DNA from: Sulfuricaulis sp.
GTDB lineage: Bacteria > Pseudomonadota > Gammaproteobacteria > Acidiferrobacterales > Sulfurifustaceae
DNA: 32,386 bases
Assembly: GCA_030650525.1 (NCBI GenBank)
Contig: JAUSDQ010000109.1
Location: 1-32,386 of the forward strand
Direction: 5' to 3'
The position numbers were made by a program, and so were the translations under genes. The notes under the pieces were generated by a model. That model had not been told where the DNA came from, did not search any database, and saw nothing but the letters and a program-made list of their open reading frames with translations. This document shows, in pieces, positions 30,860 to 30,979 of this stretch (position 1 is the first letter of the stretch; the number at the start of each line of letters is the position of its first letter).

Positions 30860-30979
30860 AATACAGACGAACTGTTATTCGGTCGCCTTGCCAGCGGTGG
30901 GCGTGCGCGCGTGACGGAGAGCGGTGACGGGCGGTTTGAGTTTGAGTTCGAAACCTTGGCGGCCAAGGTCGAGTCATAA
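30860..30979 (+). pseudogene. Orphan clpA 3'-end remnant
   Basis: From 30869 an uninterrupted frame of 36 codons reads ELLFGRLASGGRARVTESGD, then GRFEFEFETLAAKVES, and ends at TAA 30977-30979. It aligns with the end of the intact ClpA ([20 protein letters not shown]...). The preceding codons (NTD) still resemble the PLANELLFG context, after which an AT-rich stretch destroys similarity. There is no start codon or ribosome site. Nucleotide identity to the intact copy is only partial, so it is not a recent duplication; more likely it is the tail of an older or foreign clpA left after recombination. Confidence 0.75.

Follow-up and report, generated by a model that had tools for sequence, protein, structure and literature searches.

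Why does a second ClpA C-terminus lie directly behind an intact clpA gene in the binned genome G000, assigned to Sulfuricaulis sp.? The question arises at the right-hand end of the window, a stretch of 32,386 nucleotides that makes up a whole contig (C57) of this genome. The features in this part of the window are as follows.

28095-28412: clpS, 5' of clpA
28467..30755, plus strand: intact host clpA, likely start at 28494, with genus-level identity over its full length
30756..30865, no strand: junction spacer, 110 bp, low GC
30866..30979, plus strand: orphan tail of the ClpA C-terminal type, with 37 codons, a stop, and no start codon
31013..31049, no strand: strong, symmetrical (bidirectional) terminator separating tail and cytochrome gene
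31088..32308, minus strand: c-type cytochrome gene, 406 aa, convergent with clpA, with relatives in genomes G004 and G020
32334..32386, minus strand: 3' end of another gene in the putative insert (ending in TNSPAASTTSATDLVIQ and a stop), truncated where the contig ends

The orphan tail and the intact clpA

Direct reading of the sequence from GAA at 30869 to TAA at 30977-30979 gives 36 codons and a stop, ELLFGRLASGGRARVTESGDGRFEFEFETLAAKVES, which the initial annotation had described as an in-frame, ClpA-like stretch. Both the frame and the likeness were borne out, the latter by matches to clpA ends. The likeness gains one codon, GAC at 30866, and begins abruptly there, as the codons 5' of it read F-F-I-N-T against KKPLA, with no match. 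The translation of 30866-30979, DELLFGRLASGGRARVTESGDGRFEFEFETLAAKVES followed by a stop, is a second ClpA C-terminus, and its last residues are FEFEFETLAAKVES.

Used as a query, the orphan tail matched the end of the host clpA with an E value of 0.004, indicating that the likeness is not due to chance. Matches were also obtained in 50 of the 57 genomes of the order (E<=1) and in 36 of the 369 genomes of the class (E<=0.001), and nearly all of them were the ends of full-length clpA genes. The top match in the class was a clpA end from another family (69% over 30 residues, E 1.5e-6). As in full-length clpA ends, the tail has the [DEN]-E-L-L-F-G-x-L-x-x-G-G motif, an acidic tail, and a stop; it begins at ELLFG, the same point as a conserved block of clpA, with a nucleotide identity to the host of only 61%. 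Thus, the absence of ClpA similarity, which the annotation had named as evidence against its reading, did not occur. Pfam itself was silent on the orphan tail, as expected because the variable end lies beyond ClpB_D2-small.

An independent conserved small gene, the other outcome that the annotation had set against its reading, was not found either. No in-frame ATG, GTG, or TTG start is present 5' of the tail, which makes it implausible as a gene. Furthermore, there was no clear case of a second tail 3' of clpA in 93 other loci, where the weak matches seen at low threshold (E 0.003-0.036) lacked the ELLFG motif. We conclude that the orphan tail is no expressed small gene, having neither a start codon nor conservation as a separate gene.

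The proposal that clpA itself had been replaced or re-ended was not supported. The host ClpA protein is 91-93% identical to same-genus ClpA over its full length, and its last residues (...ADKTLA) match the ...ADKTPA ending common to its relatives. The windowed nucleotide identity to the genus tracks the genus-internal profile up to the stop with no breakpoint; the last 83 bases (0.69 vs 0.70 in the genus profile) represent the normal 3' drop. No further pieces of a second clpA were found in the genome. Judged by these comparisons, there is no sign that the intact clpA was replaced, and both its body and its tail appear genus-typical.

Divergence and origin of the tail

The remnant and the host clpA were compared over the 17 codons (51 nt) that align without gaps. 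Twelve of the 17 residues are kept at 61% nucleotide identity, and the 13 changed codons comprise 8 synonymous and 5 nonsynonymous changes. In neutral random-decay simulations, none of 20,000 runs kept as many residues (12/17), and a stop was gained in 36%. The mostly synonymous change together with the simulation result indicates that the tail diverged inside a working clpA elsewhere. On this codon evidence, the orphan tail is not a decayed local copy, and its divergence is of the purifying, coding type.

When ~90 clpA tails were ranked by whole-tail similarity to the remnant, the host clpA came 56th. Identity between the remnant and the genus was 53-71% of bases, similar to the distances from genus to order or from genus to class, while within-genus pairs shared 63-100% (median 80%), mostly above the remnant-to-genus values. 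Since the remnant falls below most within-genus pairs, we call it divergent, with an origin that is probably outside the genus. A placement tree was built on the last ~170 residues of ClpA, of which the remnant gives only 37. By the AU test, grouping the remnant with the genus was not rejected (p 0.56-0.57); however, the same grouping of a known outsider was not rejected either (p 0.32), and so the test has no power here. Thirty-seven residues are too few to place the donor of the tail.

Searches for a donor returned none. With the remnant peptide we covered the 57 order genomes, the 369 class genomes, and 398 genomes of the phylum, as well as the order of the best match, represented by a single genome; with the DNA of the region, the order genomes and plasmids; and with the cytochrome, the class, named genomes, and plasmids. 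A clpA with an orphan-type tail adjoining a cytochrome of the 406-aa type was not found in the searched genomes.

Foreign genes on both sides of the broken clpA-infA pair

In all seven same-genus relatives in which both genes could be located, infA follows clpA directly on the opposite strand, the two genes being convergent, and the distance between them is 27-298 bp in the six relatives measured. In G000, infA is not behind clpA but on a different contig, C47 (locus L141). The native sequence there comprises ate, a small gene, and infA and extends to the infA stop, the ate-infA stretch being 76-79% identical to four genus genomes. On the side of infA that should face clpA, a different gene is present.

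L141 (G000:C47), 1775-3913: SoxB-like gene, 5'-nucleotidase family

The product of this gene scored 66 bits with the SoxB model, whose cut-off is 550, indicating that the protein is related to SoxB but is not SoxB. On the C57 side, the 406-aa cytochrome has its nearest relatives, 49-55% identical, in G020 and G004; no other genome of the genus than G004 carries a similarly close relative. In G020 (two loci) and in G004, the cytochrome, a SoxB-like gene, and a further cytochrome of ~660 aa lie in one cluster; compared with their counterparts in G000, the smaller cytochromes there are about 43-55% identical and the SoxB-like genes about 32-39%. Among the 57 order genomes, the close form of the smaller cytochrome is present only in G000, G004, and G020, and the ~660-aa cytochrome only in G020 and G004. 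This middle gene of the cassette was not found in G000, so it has been lost, is different, or is unassembled; the partial gene end at 32334-32386 is unlike it. The rare cluster (L145, L146, L147), which combines SoxB-like 5'-nucleotidase-family proteins with two c-type cytochromes, possibly constitutes a distinct module for the oxidation of sulfur compounds.

Thus, the clpA-infA adjacency has been lost in G000, and foreign cassette genes are present on both broken sides. Because the broken ends of C57 and C47 each carry half of one rare cassette, they point to an insertion between clpA and infA. On the far side of the insert (L141 1346-1775), no remnant of infA or clpA was seen. The middle of the insert lies outside the assembly; in what is assembled, there was no direct repeat longer than about 13 nt between the two insert borders, and no integrase was seen.

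The stretch before the tail had been described as AT-rich and unrelated, correctly so for 30756-30865. Its GC content is 0.445 compared to 0.597 in clpA, and it has no DNA relatives in the 57 order genomes or in plasmids. The first ~10 bases past the clpA stop resemble those of genus relatives, and the spacer is without the GC-rich terminator that follows clpA in most of the genus. Inside it, TTGACC-TTCGGGTAACGGGGT-TAGCAT (30780-30807) resembles a stretched-spacer promoter of the MerR-family type, and may be a leftover from another sequence. In another genome, G007 (L002 / L142), a ~110-bp palindromic repeat, GTAGGGTGGGCA...TGCCCACCCTAC, lies between clpA and its terminator. This repeat is absent from the close relative G002, indicating that small insertions recur in the gap behind clpA.

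The hairpin at 31013-31049 has a folding energy of -27.8 kcal/mol (z -5.97) and is flanked by an A-run and a T-run. Rfam gave nothing over threshold, and the sub-threshold matches were to the terminator hairpin. It had been taken for the old clpA terminator, which is not simply so, since its neighbors are the orphan tail on one side and, on the other, the foreign cytochrome gene in convergent orientation. The best explanation of this position is that a working clpA once ended there.

A probable insertion between clpA and infA, and its alternatives

The tail is homologous to ClpA, it has diverged as coding sequence does, and the intact clpA in front of it is native. We consider it probable that a foreign block, running from a clpA tail through the terminator and the cytochrome gene to the SoxB-like gene, was inserted between clpA and infA, and that the donor tail is the scar of this insertion. 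The donor would have possessed a divergent clpA with the cytochrome/SoxB-like block directly behind it in convergent orientation and a bidirectional terminator between them, so that its cassette would have stood behind clpA, as it now does in G000. From this donor, a fragment that started within the final 37 clpA codons would have entered the genome and come to lie between clpA and infA, its non-homologous joint falling ~110 bp behind the stop of the resident clpA, which would itself have stayed intact. The clpA-side joint looks illegitimate, since likeness to ClpA is lacking 5' of the GAC codon, where an unrelated sequence of 110 bp intervenes. On the infA side, homology near infA could have served as the anchor, or the joint could again have been illegitimate. 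We infer a single event, by homology-facilitated illegitimate recombination or end-joining. C57 and C47 would be the two sides of this one insertion, although the assembly contains no C57-C47 joint. The orphan donor tail is best explained as a silent passenger without a start codon.

Recombination with a divergent copy, which the initial annotation had invoked, is likely to be the cause, and the remnant is indeed divergent; what is unsupported is its corollary, a replacement or re-ending of the intact clpA. By that account, the resident clpA had the divergent tail and the cassette, and an incoming genus-type 3' part pushed the old tail downstream. The succession of intact gene, short junction, orphan tail, and old terminator fits homology-facilitated illegitimate recombination (compare PMC2935791, PMC5361080), and this polarity, with the old tail left behind, is topologically possible given an earlier foreign acquisition. 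We nevertheless regard such a displacement as unlikely, because the intact clpA has no breakpoint and keeps the genus profile to its stop, and because a foreign clpA must already have been in the lineage, so that two or more events are required. Arrival of the tail with foreign DNA is more economical than a replacement of clpA, which needs an extra foreign step. Less likely again is that a whole foreign clpA and the cassette were inserted behind the resident clpA, and that the foreign clpA was later deleted save for its tail. The same end state would then be reached without a fragment having to start inside clpA, and the 110-bp spacer could be the deletion joint, but the genome holds no other pieces of a second clpA and one step more is needed than for the insertion that we favor.

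The G000 bin consists of 354 contigs with 5.8% contamination, and at 3.76 Mb it exceeds the 1.9-2.9 Mb of genus relatives; foreign contigs may be present in it, or it may be rich in acquired DNA. These figures would suit an assembly or binning artefact that joins two organisms. However, halves of one cassette are found on the two separately assembled contigs that flank the broken clpA-infA pair, which speaks against a chimeric assembly, and there is no second clpA in the bin, making an artefact highly improbable. It would be more surprising still if the clpA-infA gap were a recurrent landing site for metabolic cassettes passing between distant sulfur-oxidising bacteria, with the clpA and infA ends as recombination anchors, or if the tail were a silent, swappable alternative ClpA C-terminus. 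If the host clpA tail had been duplicated locally and had then decayed, the position of the orphan tail next to clpA would be accounted for, but such an origin is scarcely credible given the coding-type divergence, the failure of all 20,000 neutral simulations to keep 12 of 17 residues, and the closer similarity of tails from many other lineages than of the host's own.

The attachment site of some integrative elements lies at a gene's 3' end. The insertion that we favor shares with them a gene 3' end that is duplicated at the insertion border. It differs in that no integrase was seen, the two tails share only 61% of their bases over 51 nt, and the homologous copy lies 110 bp off rather than at the far end of the element. 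Homology-facilitated illegitimate recombination has been described for Acinetobacter, Pseudomonas stutzeri, and Streptococcus (PMC5361080). Foreign DNA next to a conserved anchor, its attachment to the chromosome through one non-homologous joint, and gene fragments at the border would be common to that process and to the present locus, whereas here the process is read from its end product alone. Rhs tip displacement has as its hallmark an orphan C-terminus that follows an intact gene (PMC2935791), and such orphans also occur in T6SS effector displacement, for which homology-facilitated illegitimate recombination is invoked (PMC5361080). In each case, an intact gene is followed by a divergent orphan C-terminus of the same family. 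However, Rhs and T6SS loci encode polymorphic toxins with repeated turnover and selection, whereas clpA is a housekeeping gene with a single orphan tail that has neither a start nor an immunity gene. Moreover, in Rhs displacement the attached tail is the newcomer and there is a breakpoint; neither applies to the host clpA, which is genus-like to its stop. No literature on an insertion between clpA and infA was found in the titles and abstracts searched. We regard the event as a further instance of a familiar type, affecting a housekeeping gene and of interest for marking a transfer border.

By itself, the tail amounts to one neutral relic, and we ascribe no function to it. As a coding scar of 111 bases, it would be the record of a metabolic cassette's entry into the chromosome, fixing one border of the transferred DNA to ~110 bp and suggesting that the donor, too, kept the cassette behind its clpA. 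Orphan tails of housekeeping genes, which are invisible to annotation, could be used in systematic searches for the borders of transfers and for the gene neighbourhoods of donors.
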